From a bacterium (GTDB lineage: Bacteria; Actinomycetota; Acidimicrobiia; Spongiisociales; UBA5794): DNA of 64,000 nucleotides. The translations under genes were made by a program, and so were the position numbers. Below are positions 52,358 to 63,081 of the stretch, in pieces. The stretch is from positions 1 to 64,000 of the forward strand of contig JAAETI010000145.1 in assembly GCA_024228555.1 (NCBI GenBank), in the 5' to 3' direction. The notes beneath the pieces were generated by a model, which did no database searches, was not told the DNA's origin, and saw nothing but the letters and a program-made list of their open reading frames with translations. The first letter of the stretch is position 1; every line of letters begins with the position of its first letter.

Positions 52358-52861
52358 TCAGACGTCCGGTTGCTCGTTGTCGTAGCGGTCGAGCGCAACA
52401 ACAAACATCAGGAAGATGATGAGTGACGCCAGTGTGAGAGCAATCGAAGGGATCCGAATCTGGAACGCGTTGAGGCCGATGAGGTTGGCAGGACGGAGAC
52501 CACGGGGGGCGTAGACGACGAACAGCAATGAGCCGATGACCATCCAACCAAACGTTGCGGCTCCGGCAACGAGAAAGCCGAGACGGGCCCCCAGGTTTGT
52601 ATAGAGCAGCAGATACACGGAACCCAGCAACGAAACGATTGCGATGATTGTGATCAGGATGCCACGCAGAGCGATGGCGAGTCCGGTGAGGTGTCCTTCG
52701 TCGTCGACTTGCCCCAGGGTGGCGTCGAATACGTCGCCGAGGAGCGAACGTACTACGGGGATGAAGACCAAGACGGAAAAGACAGCGGCGAATAGGCCGA
52801 ACTTCTCCAAGGTGCTCATGCCGCGTTCGTCCTTGATGATCGTCGTGATCGGGTTCATCAC
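52358..52861 (-). CDS. Small membrane protein of the respiratory cluster
   Basis: A 167-aa protein with five likely membrane helices (for example F-G-L-F-A-A-V-F-S-V-L-V-F-I, G-I-L-I-T-I-I-A-I-V-S-L-L-G). No haem or iron-sulfur motif is seen and I do not recognise the family. It begins within the stop of the dihaem cytochrome gene, so it is translationally coupled and probably a subunit or assembly factor of the same complex. It is the last gene of the minus-strand respiratory operon. Confidence 0.7.
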   Translation of the reverse strand: MMNPITTIIKDERGMSTLEKFGLFAAVFSVLVFIPVVRSLLGDVFDATLGQVDDEGHLTGLAIALRGILITIIAIVSLLGSVYLLLYTNLGARLGFLVAGAATFGWMVIGSLLFVVYAPRGLRPANLIGLNAFQIRIPSIALTLASLIIFLMFVVALDRYDNEQPDV

Positions 52862-54453
52862 ATTGACCTCTCGTACTTAACGATCAAATCGATGTCCTCC
52901 TGGCTGAGCAGCGCCCCGAATCCGGGCATGCCGCCAACGCCGCTGAGGCCGTTGATGCCGTACTCGGCGGATGCTTCGGCTCCTTCGATGATGAAGTCGG
53001 CGTGGTCGGCAGCATCGGGGAATTGCACAACGGTTCGCCCATCGGTCAGCGATGGGGCCCAAGCTCCCGAACCAGGCGTCTGCTCGAACTCGACGCCCGC
53101 GCTGTAGCCGGCTGTGTGGCAACGAGCGCAGTAGGCATTGAAGAGCCCGACAGCGCGGGTGGCCTCAATCGTGCTGAGGCCGGCTGCTGCGGCTACCTCG
53201 TCGAAGTCGACCTTCCAAGCTTTGGTCTCGAGAGCCTCATTGAGGAATTCGATCCCAGCGATGACGGGTGCCGCAAAGTCGTCGTTGCGGTCGGTAAGCA
53301 GGGACAGCTCGAGGTGCTTTGCATCGAGATGCGAGATGAATGCCTCAACCGAATCAAGGTCGGCGACCGGCGTGCCCGTAGCGTCTGTCATCGAGAAGGC
53401 TGACGTTGGAGAAAGGCTCAGCTCAAAGCCGGAGTCGGTGAGTTGGGTGACCTCGAGGGTGTTTGTGTCGACGCTGCGGGTCGTAACGGTCTCAAATGCG
53501 GATGCGGCAATCAGGACAAGTGCCTCTTCCGCCTCATCGGTAACACCGTCACGATCCGTATCGACACCAGGCGAACTGCATGTCGTGGCCACCACGGCTG
53601 CCGACTCAACGGTGCAAGTTCCGGCACCTCCGAGCAGTGCGTCCACGTCATCGGGCATGGTGCTGACGACACCAAACTGAGTTGGGCCGTCCAAGATGTC
53701 TGCTAGGGCGGCCTCTTCGATGGCGATCCTGGTCAGAATGGATGACTCTGCGTTTGCGATCCGGTCTAGCGCCGCGATAACCGCATCGTCGGCCATGGCG
53801 AAAGCGTCCATCTGGGGGATCTGCAGATCCTTGAGATAGTCAACAACCTGGTCGATTTCTTGAACGGTCATCGCCCCGCCGCCGTCAAGACCATTGGCGG
53901 GCATCGGGCTGCCGGCCCGTCCGTTGACGATCCAATGCCGAACCTCGTTCTCGTCGTAGCGGAGGAAGACATCGTTGATGGCGGGAGCAGACCACGAGGC
54001 GGTCAAACCGGAACGATCTTCGACGATCTCTGCGCCACCGCCACTGCCGTCGGGGCCATGGCATGAGGCGCACTCAAACTTGACCCACCACTCCTCACCG
54101 AAGTGAAGGTTGGCCTCGTGGATTTCCTCGGCCGCCGCCTCCTGACGGTTGGTTTCGTTCACGTAGTAGAGAGGGGTGACGATGGCCAATACGGCTGCTG
54201 CGATCAGTGCTGCGGTGAGGACTCGCGTGAGTCGATCATTCTCGAGCCCCTCGTTGTCCATGAAGAATTCTTGGTTGGGTGCTGGAGTTTCCGTGGCGCG
54301 GGTGCGGCGGCGGCTGTTGATGACGCCATAGCCGACCCACACGAGGAATACGCCGAGGGCAATGGTCAGCACGATCGAGCCGAGTCCGACGTTGCTCGGG
54401 CCTACAGGCTCCGCCTCGGCAGTTGCAATTATTGGGAAGAGATAGGCGCTCAC
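52858..54453 (-). CDS. Membrane-anchored dihaem cytochrome c
   Basis: 531 aa. Two membrane helices (about 24-44, 78-97) are followed by a first cytochrome c domain (C-A-S-C-H at 128-132) and a second C-terminal one (C-A-R-C-H at 442-446). Between them lies a 230-residue insertion with an EF-hand/thrombospondin-like calcium loop, D-T-D-R-D-G-V-T-D-E. It probably replaces cytochrome c1/CcA as electron acceptor from the Rieske protein. It overlaps the Rieske gene upstream by 4 bp. The insertion may mediate contacts with other subunits. Confidence 0.88.
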   Translation of the reverse strand: MSAYLFPIIATAEAEPVGPSNVGLGSIVLTIALGVFLVWVGYGVINSRRRTRATETPAPNQEFFMDNEGLENDRLTRVLTAALIAAAVLAIVTPLYYVNETNRQEAAAEEIHEANLHFGEEWWVKFECASCHGPDGSGGGAEIVEDRSGLTASWSAPAINDVFLRYDENEVRHWIVNGRAGSPMPANGLDGGGAMTVQEIDQVVDYLKDLQIPQMDAFAMADDAVIAALDRIANAESSILTRIAIEEAALADILDGPTQFGVVSTMPDDVDALLGGAGTCTVESAAVVATTCSSPGVDTDRDGVTDEAEEALVLIAASAFETVTTRSVDTNTLEVTQLTDSGFELSLSPTSAFSMTDATGTPVADLDSVEAFISHLDAKHLELSLLTDRNDDFAAPVIAGIEFLNEALETKAWKVDFDEVAAAAGLSTIEATRAVGLFNAYCARCHTAGYSAGVEFEQTPGSGAWAPSLTDGRTVVQFPDAADHADFIIEGAEASAEYGINGLSGVGGMPGFGALLSQEDIDLIVKYERSM

Positions 54454-55283
54454 AGGCAGGATGGTCCCTGGGGATAGGCGATGGTCTTGATCTTTGCTCG
54501 CGGTGTTTCGAGGACGGTTCCGGTGTCAACGATCAGGTTGCCCTGGGCGTCGACTTCGAGGGCAAACCGGTCAAGGTTGCGGGGAGCGGGGCCGCTGTCG
54601 TACTCGCCGTGGAAGTTGTACTTCGAACCGTGGCACGGGCACTCGAAACCTTGTGACGATCCACACTCAGGGACACGACATCCCAGGTGAACACACTTTT
54701 GCCAAAGGGCCATGAGCCCCGTGTCCCCACCGTCGGCGCCGGCGACTACGGGCAGTCCTTCGAACGAGCTACCGGGAACCAGCGCCCCATCCATCGGGAC
54801 TAGCCAAGACTGGGCTTCGGCGACGAACAACGGGTGGATGGTTCCGTCACCAGGGACCACCTTCGACCGCAGATCGGCGATGGGGCCGACGTTGATCTTG
54901 CTGCCAAAACCGCCACTGAGCTTCGGCCACATGAACGCCACCATGCTGATGCCCAGGGGCCCAAGAAAACCGATCCCAAATACACCGAGGAGGGCGCGGT
55001 TGAGGAACTTTCGCCTGGTGACACCCATTTCGGTAGCCGAGATCTCGATCCTGTCGTCTTCGATCGTGATCGGCTCGTGCGCCGGCGCTGCGACCTCAGC
55101 GTGGACCGGTTCGGGCTCCGTCTTGGTCTTGGCAGAACTGTCACGCTTGGCTGCCTTGCGGTCGAACTCGCCAACGATTGGGCTGGCCGATGGTCCGCGG
55201 CGCCACGCAACTGCAAAGACACCAGCTGCGACGACGACCCCTACCGCTATGAGGGATGTGATCAGTATTGCTGTGGCACTCAT
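54450..55283 (-). CDS. qcrA: Rieske iron-sulfur protein of a cytochrome bc complex
   Basis: 277 aa. A membrane helix at 5-27 and a second (97-118) after a twin-arginine-like R-R-K-F-L lead into the Rieske domain. The cluster ligands are C197-V-H199 and C215-P-C217-H218, with C202 as the likely disulfide partner. It accepts an electron from menaquinol at the cytochrome b site and passes it to cytochrome c. The Tat-type R-R before the second helix fits export of a folded cluster. It is coupled to the dihaem cytochrome gene and separated from cytochrome b by 22 bp. Confidence 0.93.
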   Translation of the reverse strand: MSATAILITSLIAVGVVVAAGVFAVAWRRGPSASPIVGEFDRKAAKRDSSAKTKTEPEPVHAEVAAPAHEPITIEDDRIEISATEMGVTRRKFLNRALLGVFGIGFLGPLGISMVAFMWPKLSGGFGSKINVGPIADLRSKVVPGDGTIHPLFVAEAQSWLVPMDGALVPGSSFEGLPVVAGADGGDTGLMALWQKCVHLGCRVPECGSSQGFECPCHGSKYNFHGEYDSGPAPRNLDRFALEVDAQGNLIVDTGTVLETPRAKIKTIAYPQGPSCL

Positions 55284-55305
55284 TGTTGGGCCTGGTCCTT
55301 TTGCA

Positions 55306-56196
55306 TCAGAAGTCGAAGAAGATTCCGTCGACCCATGGGAACGAGAAGTTGAATCCCGGACCCCGGAAGAAGGAACCGTAGGTTGTCAGAATCGCTGCAC
55401 CGAATAGGAAGAAACTGAAGATCATGATTGCGAGTTTGCGGTCCGACGGCCGCACCGCTGGGTTCTTGTCTACGTACGGAATCATGGCCAACCCGATCAC
55501 ACCAAACGTGGGGATGATCACACCAGCCACCTGGGGGTCAAAGTAGGAGAGCAGCTCCTGGAGGCCGAGAAAGTACCACGGTGCCTTGGACGGGTTGGGC
55601 TGTTCGTTGAAGTTGGCGAACTCCAGCAGCGGAGCGTCGACAAAGACTGAGAAGATGATCAGTCCGGCCATTACAACCATCAGAGCTACGAATTCGATGG
55701 CCAAGAGATGAGGCCACACGTTGACCTTGTCTGCTGGTGAGCTCTTGACTTGCTGGATTGCGCCGGCCTTGACGACAGTGAGCAGTCGCTGCGTGGTCAC
55801 ACCATCTGGGATCGCCGGTGGGGCTGCCGCTGCTGGTGCAGGTGCGGCAGCAACAGGAGCTGCTGTGGCGGCGGGTGCTGCCGCCATTGTGGGAACGGGC
55901 TTGCCTTCCTTGCGGGCACGACCTTCCATCGCTCGCTGCAATAGCGCCTCGGGTACTCCCGTGGCAGCGGACTCCGTGGCGATGTCGCGGACACCACCGG
56001 TTGCCGACGCCGGTGCTGGAGCTGTGGCCGCGGGTGTAGCGGCGGGCTGAGCCGGTGCGACTGGTGCGGGTGCCGCGGCCTCTGGGGCCGGAGCTTCACC
56101 CTTCATCTCAGCAAGAATCTCTTCGACGTCCCGTCCTTCGGCCTTGGCGCGAGCCTCAGCAGAGCGACGGAGCAGGTGTTCGGGTAGGCCAGCCAT
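55306..56196 (-). CDS. Cytochrome b C-terminal half (subunit IV-like) with N-terminal helical modules
   Basis: 296 aa. Residues ~1-130 are an extension: two short helical modules (L-P-E-H-L-L-R-R at 4 and V-P-E-A-L-L-Q-R near 80) linked by Ala/Pro-rich arms. The membrane part carries L-A-I-E-F-V-A-L, P-S-K-A-P-W-Y-F-L-G-L-Q-E-L and three helices, equal to the C-terminal half of cytochrome b or PetD. It helps form the quinol-oxidation site with the split N-terminal half. ATG 56196 overlaps the stop of that gene (TAATG); the longer upstream frame is a shadow. Confidence 0.88.
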   Translation of the reverse strand: MAGLPEHLLRRSAEARAKAEGRDVEEILAEMKGEAPAPEAAAPAPVAPAQPAATPAATAPAPASATGGVRDIATESAATGVPEALLQRAMEGRARKEGKPVPTMAAAPAATAAPVAAAPAPAAAAPPAIPDGVTTQRLLTVVKAGAIQQVKSSPADKVNVWPHLLAIEFVALMVVMAGLIIFSVFVDAPLLEFANFNEQPNPSKAPWYFLGLQELLSYFDPQVAGVIIPTFGVIGLAMIPYVDKNPAVRPSDRKLAIMIFSFFLFGAAILTTYGSFFRGPGFNFSFPWVDGIFFDF

Positions 56197-56972
56197 TAGA
56201 GCGGCCCCGAGATTCCGCCGTCCTTGCGGACTCGCCAGAAGTGGACGGCCATGAAGATCACGATGATGAATGGCAGGAATAGAACGTGGAGCACGTACCA
56301 GCGCAGCAGCGTGTCGGGGGTGATCTGGACCCCTCCAATGAGGGCAAATGACACTTGATCGCCGACGACAGGCGCATACGCCCCCATGTTCGATCCAACA
56401 GTCACAGCCCAGAGCGCCAGCTGATCCCAAGGGAGCAGGTATCCGGTGAACGACAGCAGCAGAGTCAACAGCAGCAGGACGATACCGACTACCCAGTTGA
56501 ACTCCCGTGGCGGTTTGTAGGCGCCGTGGTAGAAGACCCGTGCCATGTGCAGGAACACAGTGAGAACCATGAGGTGAGCACCCCACCGGTGCATGTTTCT
56601 GACGAGCTGTCCGAAGGCAACGTCGGTCGACAAAGCCTGGATGTCAAGATAAGCCTGCGGCGAAGTGGGTCGGTAGTAGAACATCAGGAAGATGCCGGTA
56701 ATCGTCAGCAGAATGAATAAGAAGAAGCTGAGACCACCGAGACATAACGTGTAGGAAAGCCGTACCGCGTGTCGCTTCACCTTGACGGGATGGAGGTGAT
56801 AGAGAACGTTGTTCATGATCACGTAGGAGCGGTTGCGGGGCGAGTCTGTATAGCCGTACCGGAACGGTGATCCGGGACGGAAGATGCTCGTCCAGACCTC
56901 GCTGGAACGAATGTGATCACCGGCTTGGGATAGGCGCTCTTTTAGCCCGACCCTTCCGTTTCCGTTTGCCAC
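56196..56972 (-). CDS. Cytochrome b N-terminal half (PetB/QcrB-like)
   Basis: 258 aa with four core helices. Haem b ligands appear as H-R-W-G-A-H and V-F-L-H-M-A-R-V-F-Y-H in helix B and further His in helix D (V-L-H-V-L-F-L-P, A-V-H-F-W-R). The G-Y-L-L-P-W-D-Q-L motif marks a quinone-binding loop. Actinobacterial QcrB is usually one long protein, whereas here cytochrome b is split in b6/IV style. It is upstream of subunit IV and downstream of a ferredoxin gene, all on one operon. Confidence 0.93.
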   Translation of the reverse strand: MANGNGRVGLKERLSQAGDHIRSSEVWTSIFRPGSPFRYGYTDSPRNRSYVIMNNVLYHLHPVKVKRHAVRLSYTLCLGGLSFFLFILLTITGIFLMFYYRPTSPQAYLDIQALSTDVAFGQLVRNMHRWGAHLMVLTVFLHMARVFYHGAYKPPREFNWVVGIVLLLLTLLLSFTGYLLPWDQLALWAVTVGSNMGAYAPVVGDQVSFALIGGVQITPDTLLRWYVLHVLFLPFIIVIFMAVHFWRVRKDGGISGPL

Positions 56973-56997
56973 CTGTTCTCCCTCAGTCTCTCAGCCG

Positions 56998-57441
56998 CTA
57001 CCAGCGGATTCCGTACATGTAGCCATTCTTCCAATCCCTGGCCCCAGTGTCGTATTCCCAGGGCTTGGATGAAAAATCGGCAATCTCGTCTGCGACCGAT
57101 CCCGCAAACTTGCCGAGCGAAATAACGCCGGTCGGGCAGCGGTCGATGCATAGCGCACACCTTGTGCATGTATCCTCGTCGACGATGAAGAACCCGCCGT
57201 TTTTGGTCTGGTCGCCCGGGTCTTCAACGTTGCTCGCCTCGGCGATCGCATCCATGGACAAGTAGTGAATGCACTTCCACGGGCAGATGTCGACGCAGCC
57301 CTCGCACAAGATGCATTCTGCCTGATTGATGTGGAGGAACTGCTTTGGCTTGACCGCCGCGATCAAATAGGATCCGTCGACAGCGGCAAGTTGGTAGTCC
57401 TCGCGGGTGTCGATCAGTTCGGTCCAAGCTTCGCTTGCCAT
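56998..57441 (-). CDS. 2x[4Fe-4S] ferredoxin in a bc operon
   Basis: 147 aa. Two four-cysteine motifs are visible: C-I-L-C-E-G-C-V-D-I-C-P and C-T-R-C-A-L-C-I-D-R-C-P. The C-terminal ~50 residues are unique and aromatic (D-T-G-A-R-D-W-K-N-G-Y-M-Y). A dicluster ferredoxin is not part of normal bc complexes. Here it sits between a small membrane protein and cytochrome b with tiny gaps, so it is probably a peripheral subunit on the inner face that links the quinone pool to a soluble donor or acceptor. Confidence 0.9.
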   Translation of the reverse strand: MASEAWTELIDTREDYQLAAVDGSYLIAAVKPKQFLHINQAECILCEGCVDICPWKCIHYLSMDAIAEASNVEDPGDQTKNGGFFIVDEDTCTRCALCIDRCPTGVISLGKFAGSVADEIADFSSKPWEYDTGARDWKNGYMYGIRW

Positions 57442-57447
57442 CGCGGT

Positions 57448-58053
57448 TTACCTCTCGACCTTTTGGAGGGGACGGCCGTAGACGGACACGTTCTCTTGAG
57501 CACCCTTTGGTTTCTTGGCCGCACGGATTTCGTCACGCTTCTGCCAGCGAATCATGGCAATAGCGACGGCACCGAGAGCAACAACCGAGTAGGTGCCAGA
57601 GACCACATCCTTGAATGCTGCGGCAGACAGGTTGACTTCGTTGCCGCCGATGAGGGATGTCGGGATCTCGACCCAGATCTTCTGATCGGTCCACTCCCAA
57701 ACCGCCTGTGTATAGGTGAGCCACTGGTTGGGGATGACGCCAAACAGAATCATCATCAGGCCTGTGAACAATCCGCCACCGACGGCTGACCGTGCCCACG
57801 TCATCTTTTTCTCATAGAGGTAGGCGAGGGCAACTCCTGCCATCGCAAGAAGGACGCCACCGAGTGAGACGAGCTGACCGAGTAGGACCCACACCCAGCC
57901 ACGGGGGATATCGGGAAATAGGTCGCGCCCGACCTCGTCGACAGTGGGGAGGCCGGTGAAGTGAGCCCACAGTGCTCCGCCGATCGCAAGGGCGGTACCG
58001 ACGAGAACGGCAGTGAGGCCCAGAACGAAGTTCCTGTCTCGTTGTTTCGCCAT
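57448..58053 (-). CDS. Four-helix membrane protein of the respiratory cluster
   Basis: 201 aa from ATG 58053 (AGGA upstream). Four membrane helices are seen (V-L-G-L-T-A-V-L-V-G-T, W-V-L-L-G-Q-L-V-S-L-G-G-V, L-F-T-G-L-M-M-I-L, S-V-V-A-L-G-A-V-A) with an aromatic stretch between the third and fourth. No cofactor motif and no family that I can name. It is the first gene of the minus-strand respiratory operon, six bases before the ferredoxin, and may be its membrane anchor. Confidence 0.75.
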   Translation of the reverse strand: MAKQRDRNFVLGLTAVLVGTALAIGGALWAHFTGLPTVDEVGRDLFPDIPRGWVWVLLGQLVSLGGVLLAMAGVALAYLYEKKMTWARSAVGGGLFTGLMMILFGVIPNQWLTYTQAVWEWTDQKIWVEIPTSLIGGNEVNLSAAAFKDVVSGTYSVVALGAVAIAMIRWQKRDEIRAAKKPKGAQENVSVYGRPLQKVER

Positions 58054-58376
58054 CGTCTGTCCTGACTCGACCGTCGTTAGATGGCGACATTCTAAGCCGT
58101 CCCAATCAAGCACACAGTGCGTTGGCCGTCGCCGCCGTGCGTCACCATAGTGCCATCATCCTGGCATCGCCCATCGCGTCCAGCTCTTCTGTTCGGCAGG
58201 TCATTCTCATCCTGGATTGATTTTGATTACAGTGCCGCTAACTCCGTCGTTCTTGCCGCTGCAAGGGAGAGGCTCGAGACCGTGTCGATTTCGCGAATCT
58301 TGATAGGTGCGAGCTATTCTGCCGATGTCCGCGAAGGACAAAATGGGTCTTCAATCATGGAAGGGACTTGGCAAGG
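58054..58376. other. 323-bp divergent control region of the two respiratory arms
   Basis: No gene is supported. It must hold both promoters. TTGATTTTGATTAC (58217-58230) loosely resembles an FNR/CRP-type site but one half is poor. I saw no convincing Rex site. Confidence 0.4.
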
Positions 58377-60371
58377 GTGACTGCCGACGTTTCGCACGAC
58401 AATCAAGCGGAGGTCTTGACCCCGGCCGCTTCGTCGCAGAGTGTGGCCCGCCACCATCTTGCGGCTTCGCTCGGGTTCCTCATCGTCGGTGTGCTCATGC
58501 TGGCAATCGCCAGTGTCCAGTACGCGGCGCCCGACCTCCTCGATGGGTCAGGGGTCTTGTCGTACGGCCGACTGCGACCTACTGCGATCCACTTCCTTCT
58601 CTATGGCTGGTTGACTCTGGGGCTGATCGGAGCGATGTACTACGCCGTGCCCCGGCTGGCCGGCGTCAAGCTGACCGATCCAGGTGTCGCCAGGATCGGA
58701 TTCATCCTCATGTCCGTCGGCTATGCGGGCGGTGGTCTCGCCATCCTCTTGGGACAGACCGATGGACTGCGCTACTTGGAAGCTCCGCCTGTCGCCGACC
58801 TCACCGTTCTGGTCGGCATGATGGCAATGTCTCACTCCGTCGCAAGGACCATTGCAGGTCGCGACAGGGACGATCGCAGCCCGGCGGAATGGTTCATCCT
58901 GGCGGCCGTGGTGTGGCTGGTTGGTCTGCACGTCATCGGCAACCTCGACATGCTGTCCCTGCTGGCGACACTCTTCTACTCGCAGCCGCCGGTGCTCCAT
59001 GGCATCAACTCCGCAGTGCTGGCCGGCTTCTACCGAGCTGGGATTATCGGTATGTGGGCAGCCACCGCCGGCGTTGGTCTCGTCTACTTCCTAGTACCCC
59101 GCATTGTGGGCTTGACTCGTTTCAAGGCCACCCGGATGTCCGTTGTCGGATTCTGGGGACTCGGCACCGCCTGGGCGTTCACAGGATCGGCAGAACTCAC
59201 CTACACCGCGATTCCGGACTGGCTCGAGACCATCGGTGTCATGTTCTCGTTTGCTTTGCTGTTGCCGGTAGCGACCATCGTTGTTGACATAGCGACGTTC
59301 TTGCGAGGACGTACCTCGGAGATATCGGATAAGAACCGGTATTCGCTGAACCTCATCTACCTCGGTCTTGCGCTCTTCGCTGCGGTGCCGGTGCTGAACC
59401 TGGCTCAGGCCCTGCGAGCTTCTGGCGGTCTGGTCGGCTTCACCGACTGGGTCTACGGGTTCGAAGTCTTGGCCATTCTCGGCGCATTCAGCTCGTGGTT
59501 GTTTGCATACGTCTATCACGTAGCTCCTCCGATGGTGAGCGCTGACGCTCGCCGCGTGCAGAAATGGCACGTGTGGCTAACCGTGTCCGGTCTGGCTGTT
59601 GCCGTCTTCGCCATGCTGGTTGGTGGGCTTGTTGCGGGAGCTACCTGGGTCGGTGGAGGTGCCGACAGTGCCGCCGCGGTTGGAGATGGCTTCGAGTCGA
59701 CCGCCGATGCGATGTGGAACTACGGCTTTGCGGTTGCCCGCATCGCAGGACTGATCGTCTTTGCGATCGGCCAAGCCCTTCTGTTCTCATACGCGACTGT
59801 TGCCTGGTTCCTCGAGTCCGACCGGGACTCGGTCCTTGCTGCCGATCCCGCCCTCGATGCTGGCGGGCAAGAGGTCAATGAAGAATTGGCTGTCGATCCA
59901 GAAGCTGAGCCGACTTGGCGCAGCATCGGTGCCATAGCCCTCGCTGCCGGAATCGGAGTCTTTGCTCTCGTTGTGTTCCTGCCCTCATTGGAGTCGGAGG
60001 CAGCGACGCCCACGATCCTTGCCGACGAGTCGCGTCTCTATGCGGACGGCAGTGACGCTGCCCTCGGACGTGACATCTACATCCGCGAAGGATGCTCGTA
60101 CTGTCACACTCAGGCGGTGCGGCCCATCGTTACCGATGTTGGGTTGGGTGCCGTGTCGGTAGCCGGCGATTACGCCCACGAGCAGCCAGTACTCCTTGGT
60201 GTCGCTCGGATGGGACCCGATCTCATGCACATTGCCGACCGGGGCGGGACGACGGTTGACCATCTGAAGGACCCGCGCAAGGAACGGCCCTGGTCGACGA
60301 TGCCGTCGTATGACTACTTGTCGCAGGCCGACCTCGAGGCTTTGGTCGCATACGTGAACGGGTTGAAGTAA
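58377..60371 (+). CDS. CcoN-CcoO fusion with oxidase metal ligands missing
   Basis: 664 aa. Residues ~25-480 follow cbb3 subunit I: G-R-L-R-P, then Y-F-L-V-P-R, W-L-E-T-I-G-V-M-F-S and T-D-W-V-Y-G. At metal sites the ligands are gone: the CuB motif G-H-N reads R-A-G (220-222), P-H-H reads S-A-E (271-273), and the G-H-V-H haem motif reads G-F-E-V (361-364). A single His (H72) remains near the low-spin haem position. Residues ~540-664 are a CcoO-like cytochrome c with C-S-Y-C-H (573-577) and R-M-G-P-D-L-M. It should be an electron-passing scaffold rather than an oxidase. GTG 58377 (AAGGGA upstream) is preferred to TTG 58368. Confidence 0.85.
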   Translation: MTADVSHDNQAEVLTPAASSQSVARHHLAASLGFLIVGVLMLAIASVQYAAPDLLDGSGVLSYGRLRPTAIHFLLYGWLTLGLIGAMYYAVPRLAGVKLTDPGVARIGFILMSVGYAGGGLAILLGQTDGLRYLEAPPVADLTVLVGMMAMSHSVARTIAGRDRDDRSPAEWFILAAVVWLVGLHVIGNLDMLSLLATLFYSQPPVLHGINSAVLAGFYRAGIIGMWAATAGVGLVYFLVPRIVGLTRFKATRMSVVGFWGLGTAWAFTGSAELTYTAIPDWLETIGVMFSFALLLPVATIVVDIATFLRGRTSEISDKNRYSLNLIYLGLALFAAVPVLNLAQALRASGGLVGFTDWVYGFEVLAILGAFSSWLFAYVYHVAPPMVSADARRVQKWHVWLTVSGLAVAVFAMLVGGLVAGATWVGGGADSAAAVGDGFESTADAMWNYGFAVARIAGLIVFAIGQALLFSYATVAWFLESDRDSVLAADPALDAGGQEVNEELAVDPEAEPTWRSIGAIALAAGIGVFALVVFLPSLESEAATPTILADESRLYADGSDAALGRDIYIREGCSYCHTQAVRPIVTDVGLGAVSVAGDYAHEQPVLLGVARMGPDLMHIADRGGTTVDHLKDPRKERPWSTMPSYDYLSQADLEALVAYVNGLK

Positions 60372-61342
60372 TGCAAGAAGTACTGAACCAGATCGCTGCC
60401 GATACCGGGGTGCCGGCTGACCTGTTGGAACGAGCTGCTCGGGCTCGAGCGACAGTCAGCGGTGTCGATGTCGAATCGCTGGTGGCCGGTTGGGGCGGTG
60501 GAGAGGCTCCCGCCGTGGCAGCCCCCGCTGCTGGGGCCCCTGCCGCCGCAGAAGCAACCCCGGCGCCGGCAGGCGACTCGGGCGCCGGCAAGTTGCCTGA
60601 GGCTCTCGTACGTCGTTCGGCGGCAGCCAAAGCCAAGCGAGAGGGAAGGCCTCTCGATGAAGTTCTAGTGGAGATGGGCCTGAGCCCTGAAGGAGAAGCG
60701 TCTGAGCCTTCGGCTGCATCGCCAGCCGTAGCTCCGGCGTCGCCATCCCCTGCCCCGACCCCCGAGCCCGCGGCAGACGAGCCAGCGACGCCGGTCGCTG
60801 AGGAAGAGCCACAACCCGTATTAGCCGGCTTCCCCCGCTGGTTGGCAGCGTCGTTCATCATCATTCCGATGATCGCGTTGTTGTATGCCGGTCTCTCACC
60901 GAATGGACCGGACTGTGGAACATCCGGTCAGCTTGCCATCAACCCCTTGACCGGCGAGGCACAGGGGTGCGGAGGCGACACCAGCCCGTTCTTCAGCCTT
61001 GGCGAGTCGGTCTACGACGCCAACTGTGCTGCTTGTCATGGGACCGATGGTTCCGGTGGCGTCGGCCCCGCATTCATCGGTGGCGCAGTACTGCAGGTAT
61101 TCTCTGCATGTGAGGACCATGTCAGCTGGGTCACTCTGGGGTCGTCCAACTGGCCCGATGCCACCTACGGTGACACCAACAAGCCTGTTGGTGGGACGGG
61201 CGTCAACATGACCGGCTACGAAGGCACGCTCAGCCAACGTGAGATTGCCGCGGTATCTCTCTACGAGAGGGTCGCGTTTGGCGGCGAGAACATCGCCGAA
61301 GCCGAAGCAGCGTGTGGTCTCGTCGAGGGTGCCGAGGGCTAG
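60371..61342 (+). CDS. Membrane monohaem cytochrome c with two N-terminal helical modules
   Basis: 323 aa, overlapping the previous stop (TAATG). Residues ~12-40 and ~74-105 are helical modules (V-P-A-D-L-L-E-R and L-P-E-A-L-V-R-R ... A-K-R-E-G-R) joined by long Ala/Pro arms. One membrane helix (F-P-R-W-L-A-A-S-F-I-I-I-P) then leads to an external cytochrome c domain with C-A-A-C-H. The cytoplasmic modules match those of the cytochrome b subunit IV gene. This is the strongest hint that the fusion protein, this cytochrome and the bc genes form one complex. The cytochrome domain has additional cysteines (D-C-G-T, Q-G-C-G-G). Confidence 0.88.
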   Translation: MQEVLNQIAADTGVPADLLERAARARATVSGVDVESLVAGWGGGEAPAVAAPAAGAPAAAEATPAPAGDSGAGKLPEALVRRSAAAKAKREGRPLDEVLVEMGLSPEGEASEPSAASPAVAPASPSPAPTPEPAADEPATPVAEEEPQPVLAGFPRWLAASFIIIPMIALLYAGLSPNGPDCGTSGQLAINPLTGEAQGCGGDTSPFFSLGESVYDANCAACHGTDGSGGVGPAFIGGAVLQVFSACEDHVSWVTLGSSNWPDATYGDTNKPVGGTGVNMTGYEGTLSQREIAAVSLYERVAFGGENIAEAEAACGLVEGAEG

Positions 61343-61839: not shown

Positions 61840-63081
61840 ATGAGGAATCCTGACGTACTTGTTGTGGGAGGCGGTCCTGGTGGCGCCGCCGCCGGCTATT
61901 GGCTGGCTTTGCGCGGTCTTTCTGTGCTCATCGCTGAGAAGAAGGAGTACCCGCGGGAGAAAGCCTGCGGCGACGGTCTGACCCCGCGTGCGATCAAGCA
62001 GCTTGTGGACATGGGCTTTGATTTCGACGGGCATCATCGCATCGTGGGGCTCCGTGCTTACACCGGCGAGGTCCGGCTCGAGATGCCATGGCCTGAGCAC
62101 TCCGTCTACCCGAACTGGGGAGCAGTGGTGCGACGAGCCGATCTGGATATGCAGGTTGCCGCTCTTGCCCAAAAGCAAGGCGCTGTAGTGGCGACGGGTG
62201 CGGAAGCTTTTCCAATGATTGAGGCAGGTGATCTCACATCGGTCATTCTCCGCCGCAAAGGTGAAGAGGATGAGACGGTCGAGCCGAAGTACGTGGTCAT
62301 TGCGGATGGTTCGCTGTCGAGGTTCGGGCGCAAGCTCGGGATGACCCGACGCAAGGACTACCCGTTTGGGCTCGCAGTACGGGGCTATTGGGAGTCACCG
62401 AATTCGGATGACGGTTATCTCGAGAGTCAGCTGGATGTTCGCGACCGGAACGGCAAATCGATGCCGGGGTACGGATGGGTCTTCCCTCTTGGCGACGGTG
62501 AGATCAACATCGGAGCCGGGGTGGTGTCGTCGTTCAAGGGGTGGAAAGGTCTCAATACCTCGCACCTCTTGGATGCGTATGTCGAGTCATTGGGAGATCA
62601 CTGGGGTTTGACCGAGACGTCGATGGTTCGAGCACCGATCGGGGGCAAGCTTCCGATGGCGCTTTCGGTTGGCCCACGCTTTGGCCGCAATTGGGTTGCC
62701 GTTGGCGATTCAATTGGTGCAGTCAATCCGTTCAACGGTGAGGGTATTGACTACGCATACGAGACTGGCCGGATGGCGGCCCGATACATTGCCGATGCCA
62801 TCGCGACGGGAAACCCTGCCGTTTTGCAGGGCTACACGCAGGAACTTGACGACATCTTTGCCGACTATCAGCGTGTCGCCCGGCGCTTTGTCATGGTCAT
62901 CGGCCAACCCGCAATGATGAAGACGTTCACCTACCTGGGCATGCGTTCGCGGCCACTGATGGAATGGGCGCTGAAGGTGATGGCGAACCTCCTCGAGCCG
63001 GAAGAGCGCGGGCTGTCGGAACGGATCTACGGAACGATCGAGCGGATCGTCAAGGTAACTCCTGATCCGCTGATCAAGTAG
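61840..63081 (+). CDS. FAD-dependent geranylgeranyl-reductase-family protein (menaquinone reductase type)
   Basis: 413 aa. FAD-binding V-V-G-G-G-P-G-G-A-A-A-G is at the N-terminus, and family motifs are P-R-E-K-A-C-G-D-G-L-T-P-R, G-Y-G-W-V-F-P and V-G-D-S-I-G-A-V-N-P-F-N-G-E-G-I. Relatives saturate isoprenoid double bonds of menaquinone (MenJ), lipids or chlorophyll. Its place between the respiratory genes and nuoA supports a quinone side-chain reductase. The C-terminal helix (G-M-R-S-R-P-L-M-E-W) may touch the membrane. Confidence 0.85.
   Translation: MRNPDVLVVGGGPGGAAAGYWLALRGLSVLIAEKKEYPREKACGDGLTPRAIKQLVDMGFDFDGHHRIVGLRAYTGEVRLEMPWPEHSVYPNWGAVVRRADLDMQVAALAQKQGAVVATGAEAFPMIEAGDLTSVILRRKGEEDETVEPKYVVIADGSLSRFGRKLGMTRRKDYPFGLAVRGYWESPNSDDGYLESQLDVRDRNGKSMPGYGWVFPLGDGEINIGAGVVSSFKGWKGLNTSHLLDAYVESLGDHWGLTETSMVRAPIGGKLPMALSVGPRFGRNWVAVGDSIGAVNPFNGEGIDYAYETGRMAARYIADAIATGNPAVLQGYTQELDDIFADYQRVARRFVMVIGQPAMMKTFTYLGMRSRPLMEWALKVMANLLEPEERGLSERIYGTIERIVKVTPDPLIK

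Follow-up and report, generated by a model that had tools for sequence, protein, structure and literature searches.

A cbb3-type oxidase subunit I fold that has lost its metal ligands accompanies an intact CcoO cytochrome beside complex III in Actinomycetota

What role is left to a heme-copper oxidase subunit when the residues that should hold its hemes and copper have all been replaced, while the cytochrome c joined to it appears intact? This question is raised by a gene in a 64,000-nucleotide stretch of DNA from a member of the Acidimicrobiia (assembly GCA_024228555.1, contig JAAETI010000145.1), the whole of which is referred to here as the window. The open reading frame begins with a GTG at 58377 and its stop codon ends at 60371 on the forward strand, where it overlaps the ATG (60371) of the next gene. 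It is a real gene of 664 codons for amino acids, with a CcoN-like half followed by a CcoO half (Table 1). Residues 26-427 of the predicted protein matched PF00115 (COX1) with 113-118 bits (cut-off 34.8), and residues 533-658 matched PF02433 (FixO/CcoO). The closest solved relatives of the N-terminal half were the CcoN subunits of cbb3 oxidases (6xkw and 3mk7, E ~1e-25), and those of the C-terminus were CcoO. An AlphaFold2 model made from a four-sequence alignment only had a pLDDT of 40. The reading that we consider probable is that the N-terminal half is a pseudo-oxidase lacking heme b that would anchor CcoO, forming an accessory cytochrome module between complex III and a caa3-type oxidase.

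Table 1 Features of the CcoN-like/CcoO locus and its neighborhood in the window
Coordinates	Strand	Feature	Basis
52358..52861	-	167-aa membrane protein whose gene ends the complex III cluster	Conserved in locus
52858..54453	-	Diheme cytochrome c subunit, 531 aa	Two cytochrome c domains
54450..55283	-	Rieske iron-sulfur protein	PF00355
55306..56586	-	Cytochrome b C-terminal (subunit IV-like) protein, two copies of shared repeat	PF00032
56196..56972	-	Cytochrome b, b6-type N-terminal subunit	PF00033/PF13631
56998..57441	-	2[4Fe-4S] ferredoxin-like subunit of the complex III cluster	Fer4
57448..58113	-	221-aa membrane protein, constant divergent neighbor	No Pfam match; conserved in locus
58377..59876	+	CcoN-like half, residues 1-500; heme-copper oxidase subunit I fold, six His ligands and active-site Tyr replaced	PF00115, 3mk7/6xkw match, ligand columns, hhalign
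59877..60371	+	CcoO half of the same ORF: one predicted TM helix and mono-heme cytochrome c	PF02433 (85 bits), PDB CcoO matches
60371..61342	+	Mono-heme membrane cytochrome c (cytc323)	Weak Cytochrome_CBB3 match (PF13442, 27.5 bits); shared N-terminal repeat; conserved neighbor
61840..63081	+	Geranylgeranyl reductase family / MenJ-like menaquinone reductase	Frequent downstream neighbor

A profile of 29 ligand-less proteins and one of five canonical CcoN sequences, aligned with hhalign, ran colinearly through 437 columns with probability 100 (E 7e-51). PF00115 was found in 29/29 members of the ligand-less profile. The protein is thus homologous to the 12-helix core of subunit I and belongs to the heme-copper oxidase superfamily by fold. 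A sequence-only reading of the gene had aligned this half by eye to cbb3 subunit I throughout; the colinear profile alignment bears this out, makes the alignment independent of family motifs matched by eye, and rules out a chance resemblance. In the alignment with P. stutzeri CcoN, from which the window residue numbers are taken, all six metal-ligand histidines are replaced along with the active-site tyrosine. The low-spin heme b ligand H60 corresponds to A70, the CuB ligand H207 to A221, the CuB pair H257/H258 to A272/E273, and the heme b3/b ligands H345/H347 to F362/V364, while Y251 corresponds to W266, so that the cross-linked tyrosine is gone. The CuB numbering (H207, H257 and H258) agrees with that in PMC3578206. 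The altered motifs named in the sequence-only reading (R-A-G, S-A-E and G-F-E-V) are exact in this alignment, and the losses at the H60 and Y251 equivalents are additional to its list.

These losses characterize a family rather than one gene. Close orthologues of the window protein were present in four named Acidimicrobiia MAGs, and the fused query had a match in 81/99 genomes of the window's relatives. Profile searches of the class and phylum extended this set to 1-Mb streamlined genomes, to two more families within the class (L139 and L140), and to several from other classes. Among 80 ligand-less relatives from the Acidimicrobiia and other Actinomycetota classes, all six histidines were missing in 76 and all but one in the other four, compared with six of six present in all 12 ligand-bearing CcoN relatives, eight of which are actinobacterial. 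Therefore a sequence error, which the earlier reading had named as a way in which the ligands might be restored, is excluded, as is a lone degenerate copy. Tyrosine was never found at the Y251 position in the 38 ligand-less rows of the tree, so this mark of cbb3 oxidases is absent as well. In a tree built without the ligand columns, the ligand-less proteins lay on one side of a single branch (support 99/99), and the same split was recovered with those columns included (support 93/99), which is consistent with one loss of the ligands. Most simply, a C-family (cbb3-like) subunit I would have lost all its heme b, heme b3 and CuB ligands once, in an ancestor common to the Acidimicrobiia and other Actinomycetota lineages, and would then have been kept.

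Could the fold still carry a cofactor on other residues? The clade alignment contained no strongly conserved His column, and no His, Met or Cys column in the N-terminal half was conserved above ~55%, so no replacement heme site is apparent. A shifted register with other histidines at the ligand sites, one of the two outcomes that the sequence-only reading had named as refuting it, was likewise rejected, because the profiles are colinear and a strongly conserved His column is lacking. We infer strongly that the CcoN-like half most likely binds neither heme b nor copper and does not reduce O2. The lone histidine in each of the four exceptional proteins is at the H257 position, and all four belong to one family (f7; L048, L054, L055 and L057); it may be a last trace of CuB. 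This histidine, the strong COX1 profile match, and several histidines invariant in the window genus (H72, H185, H208, H381 and H398) would fit a divergent but still active reductase that holds heme or another cofactor on different residues. We regard this as very unlikely, since His, Met and Cys columns near the former sites are not conserved across the clade, the cross-linked tyrosine is gone, and all 16 genomes examined have a strong match to another oxidase, an A-type-like subunit I (469-549 bits; split over two contigs in G321) found together with COX2. The histidines of the genus leave a little room for heme binding through residues that are not conserved. In the window genome, CtaC contains CuA motifs and a fused CxxCH. 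No full-length canonical CcoN was found among the order genomes by profile search, in which canonical CcoN scores 205-250 bits, and an active cbb3 paralogue in the same genomes was rejected as a candidate given that no second hit in this range was present.

The ligand-less proteins are under purifying selection. Between congeners the dN/dS of the CcoN half was ~0.13, near that of the Rieske protein, the diheme cytochrome c and CcoO, a rough value as synonymous sites are near saturation. The gene is also retained in 1-Mb streamlined genomes. The CcoN-like half nevertheless has only 23-41% identity to the window protein within the order outside its own genus and diverges faster than cytochrome b, for which a shifting function could be an alternative cause. 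In one congeneric MAG, the gene (L008 8995-10865, the same as L014) contains a TAG and lacks ~40 amino acids, and may be a pseudogene or an assembly artefact. This damaged copy and the faster divergence might suggest that the locus is the decaying remnant of a former cbb3 oxidase, near complex III by chance, but this is barely credible: the frame is open in nearly all the other relatives listed, gene order and orientation are conserved across families, and both the dN/dS and the retention in streamlined genomes speak against decay, so that the pseudogene reading is refuted in substance.

The second half of the protein retains what the first has lost. As the sequence-only reading stated, the cytochrome is intact: C573-S-Y-C-H577 (60093-60107) provides the heme c attachment site expected of a CcoO subunit and M642 is its likely axial ligand, with both invariant among genus relatives. 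CxxCH was present in the CcoO of 76/77 loci having any CcoO match, the lone exception being a weak match, and four of 81 ligand-less loci had no CcoO match. In those 77 loci, CcoO was fused to the CcoN-like protein in 50 and encoded by a separate gene in the rest. The earlier view, in which an oxidase subunit stripped of its ligands is kept beside an intact CcoO, is therefore supported, and it extends to a whole clade under purifying selection. Novelty of the fusion itself was rejected, because a ligand-bearing CcoN-CcoO fusion is annotated in Bacteroidota (Bernardetia, L080; NCBIfam NF011053, 'bifunctional cbb3 subunit I/II'). The window protein scored 216.8 bits against this model, below its curated cut-off of 1080. 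As CcoO is often separate in ligand-less loci, the fusion appears incidental, neither new nor essential.

Pairing with CcoO also bears on what the emptied fold may do. One possibility is that it has taken on a new activity in the membrane, conducting protons or ions or binding quinone while attached to complex III, with CcoO as a mere companion. Several polar or aromatic columns are kept clade-wide (R65, E135, W260, W282, E284, R347 and W424), and the gene for a MenJ-like quinone reductase often adjoins. However, the clade alignment shows no invariant intramembrane acidic or His pattern, the best conserved columns of the N-terminal half (Gly, Pro, Trp and Arg) are of the kind that a fold would be expected to retain, and the CcoN-like protein is paired with CcoO in every clear case, which anchoring fits better. 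We consider such a role unlikely. A scaffold function, in which the CcoN-like half would anchor and position the cytochrome c domain of CcoO beside a b6-type menaquinol:cytochrome c oxidoreductase (complex III), agrees better with these patterns.

This complex III is encoded on the reverse strand (52358-58113), head-to-head with the CcoN-CcoO gene. The listed ORF for the cytochrome b C-terminal protein overlaps the preceding gene, so that its true start is probably further in. The divergent arrangement is kept across the order, in the 1-Mb genomes, and in other classes, and the ferredoxin gene lies near 72/81 ligand-less genes, with most of the remainder being short fetches or contig ends. In one locus of another class (L152), no complex III cluster was found within the 13 kb covered. 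The cluster is not of the QcrA/B/C type: the window cytochrome b scored 115 bits against the QcrB model (cut-off 500), and b6-type and ExtP-like models scored higher. Its NCBIfam label, ExtP (selenite/tellurite reduction), looks like a misnomer. The cysteine in its YTLCLGG motif is presumably the equivalent of the heme c_n cysteine in cytochrome b6. A profile of this cytochrome b matched 242/295 genomes of the class and 119/397 of the phylum, a few of them through weaker paralogues. Nor is this a ccoNOQP operon with a diheme CcoP, as the downstream cytochrome contains a single cytochrome c domain that CcoP-type models match weakly. A short repeat (P-E-x-L-L-x-R-S/A) is common to the cytochrome b C-terminal subunit, cytc323, and the unfused CcoO of L064 and L141. 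The longer form PExLLxRSxxxRAxAxG looks helical and might be a tag by which the parts of one complex assemble or dock.

Across the order genomes, the CcoN-like gene and the cytochrome b of the locus were both present in 90 and both absent in 16, with nine discordant (Fisher p 5e-12, which overstates independence because these genomes share ancestry). Some of the nine are explained by contig breaks. Only one cytochrome b matching PF13631 was found in 9/16 genomes, mostly the one of the CcoN-like locus. In other families of the class and phylum the complex III cluster is present and both the CcoN-like gene and CcoO are absent, which indicates that complex III itself can do without the module and that the two parts of the module were gained or lost together. 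This joint coming and going favors a membrane anchor for CcoO over an obligatory bridge between complexes III and IV. In other families of the class, the complex III locus (L195-L202 and L214) mostly carries cytc323 and the MenJ-like gene, without the CcoN-like gene or CcoO.

Where would electrons passed to CcoO go? The anchored CcoO, together with cytc323, could relay them from the Rieske protein and diheme cytochrome of complex III to the separate caa3-type oxidase, and the module may belong to a III-IV assembly, which in the window lineage is suggested by gene linkage, itself not proof of a complex. In one locus (L140 2134-10237), a caa3 operon encoding COX2 with a fused CxxCH, COX1, COX3 and others lies between the ligand-less CcoN gene and CcoO; these genes were assigned by eye, with COX1 and COX2 confirmed by domain match. 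Cytochrome maturation genes also occur nearby. In L144 (9453-16368), the ligand-less CcoN gene is separated from complex III by genes that by eye are of Ccm type (CcmF/CcmC/CcmA-like), and in L139 and L140 their place is held by ResB/CcsA/TlpA-like genes, also assigned by eye. Such neighbors, and the caa3 operon interleaved in L140, might point to an assembly role for the CcoN-like half, as a factor that helps to insert or mature CcoO or caa3. Covalent fusion to the heme domain of CcoO in most loci would be odd for a transient factor, and we think this explanation improbable, somewhat more so than a new active role in the membrane.

Known supercomplexes make docking of the CcoN-like/CcoO module plausible. 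In R. capsulatus (Rhodobacter capsulatus), the bc1-cbb3 supercomplex (6xkw) places a cbb3 module by complex III, as the genes of the window would suggest, but in this case the module is an active oxidase. In mycobacteria and other actinobacteria, an obligate III2IV2 supercomplex, QcrABC-CtaCDEF, is described (PMC8361435). Like the window system, it is actinobacterial, has a diheme cytochrome c on complex III and uses an A-type oxidase. Electrons are transferred inside that assembly; the likeness of the window to it is one of genes. Its cytochrome b differs from that of the window, which is split, b6-type and accompanied by a ferredoxin subunit, and the passages of PMC8361435 consulted describe no cbb3-derived or ligand-less oxidase subunit. 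A bolder proposal, which we put forward as possible and tentative, is that the emptied fold is an integral, heme-free subunit of an undescribed III-IV supercomplex in Acidimicrobiia and their relatives, and that it has gained a new active function there, serving as an electron-relay dock or as a path for quinone or protons between the ferredoxin-bearing b6-type complex III and caa3.

Other relatives differ mainly in their metal sites. The window protein shares with cbb3 CcoN and CcoO (C-family; 3mk7, 6xkw) a fold that is colinear over its full length, the G-R-L-R-P, P-D-W and T-D-W motifs, and a CcoO half with CxxCH and a distal Met. Unlike cbb3, it has neither the six metal ligands nor the active-site tyrosine, is not an oxidase by sequence, and has its gene next to a complex III cluster, outside any ccoNOQP operon. 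The Bacteroidota CcoNO protein (NF011053; Bernardetia, L080) has the same fusion order, CcoN then CcoO, but keeps all ligands. In Nitrospina gracilis, a cbb3 fusion with altered CuB surroundings is likewise a fused, unusual CcoN-like protein, although most of its heme and CuB sites are kept, not emptied (PMC3578206). No earlier description of a ligand-less CcoN family was found in the open-licence literature, which is weak evidence of absence. A respiratory oxidase fold is also kept as a structural partner in cytochrome bd, where CydB is a heme-free homologue of CydA. CydB differs from the CcoN-like proteins in superfamily, and the subunit with which it forms a complex, CydA, is itself an active oxidase.

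Metal sites are what define the heme-copper superfamily, and a widely conserved clade without them suggests that the core of a respiratory enzyme can become structural, making the emptied CcoN an unusual pseudoenzyme in a bioenergetic core complex. For annotation there is a practical risk: homology alone would label these genes as cbb3 oxidases and credit the organisms with a high-affinity oxidase for which the sampled genomes have no gene. Furthermore, how complexes III and IV are connected in marine and soil actinobacteria, most of them uncultured, becomes directly testable.

Two other oxidase loci were observed in one genome (G000). A second oxidase operon (L002 1330-4347, G000:C243) encodes a cytochrome b fused to a 2[4Fe-4S] ferredoxin domain, beside a subunit I that looks B-type. 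The other (L003 788-3072, G000:C423) is a NOR-like oxidase pair with a COX2-like protein lacking an obvious CuA motif, and in its subunit I the first CuB His position seems, by eye, to be Asp/Leu.
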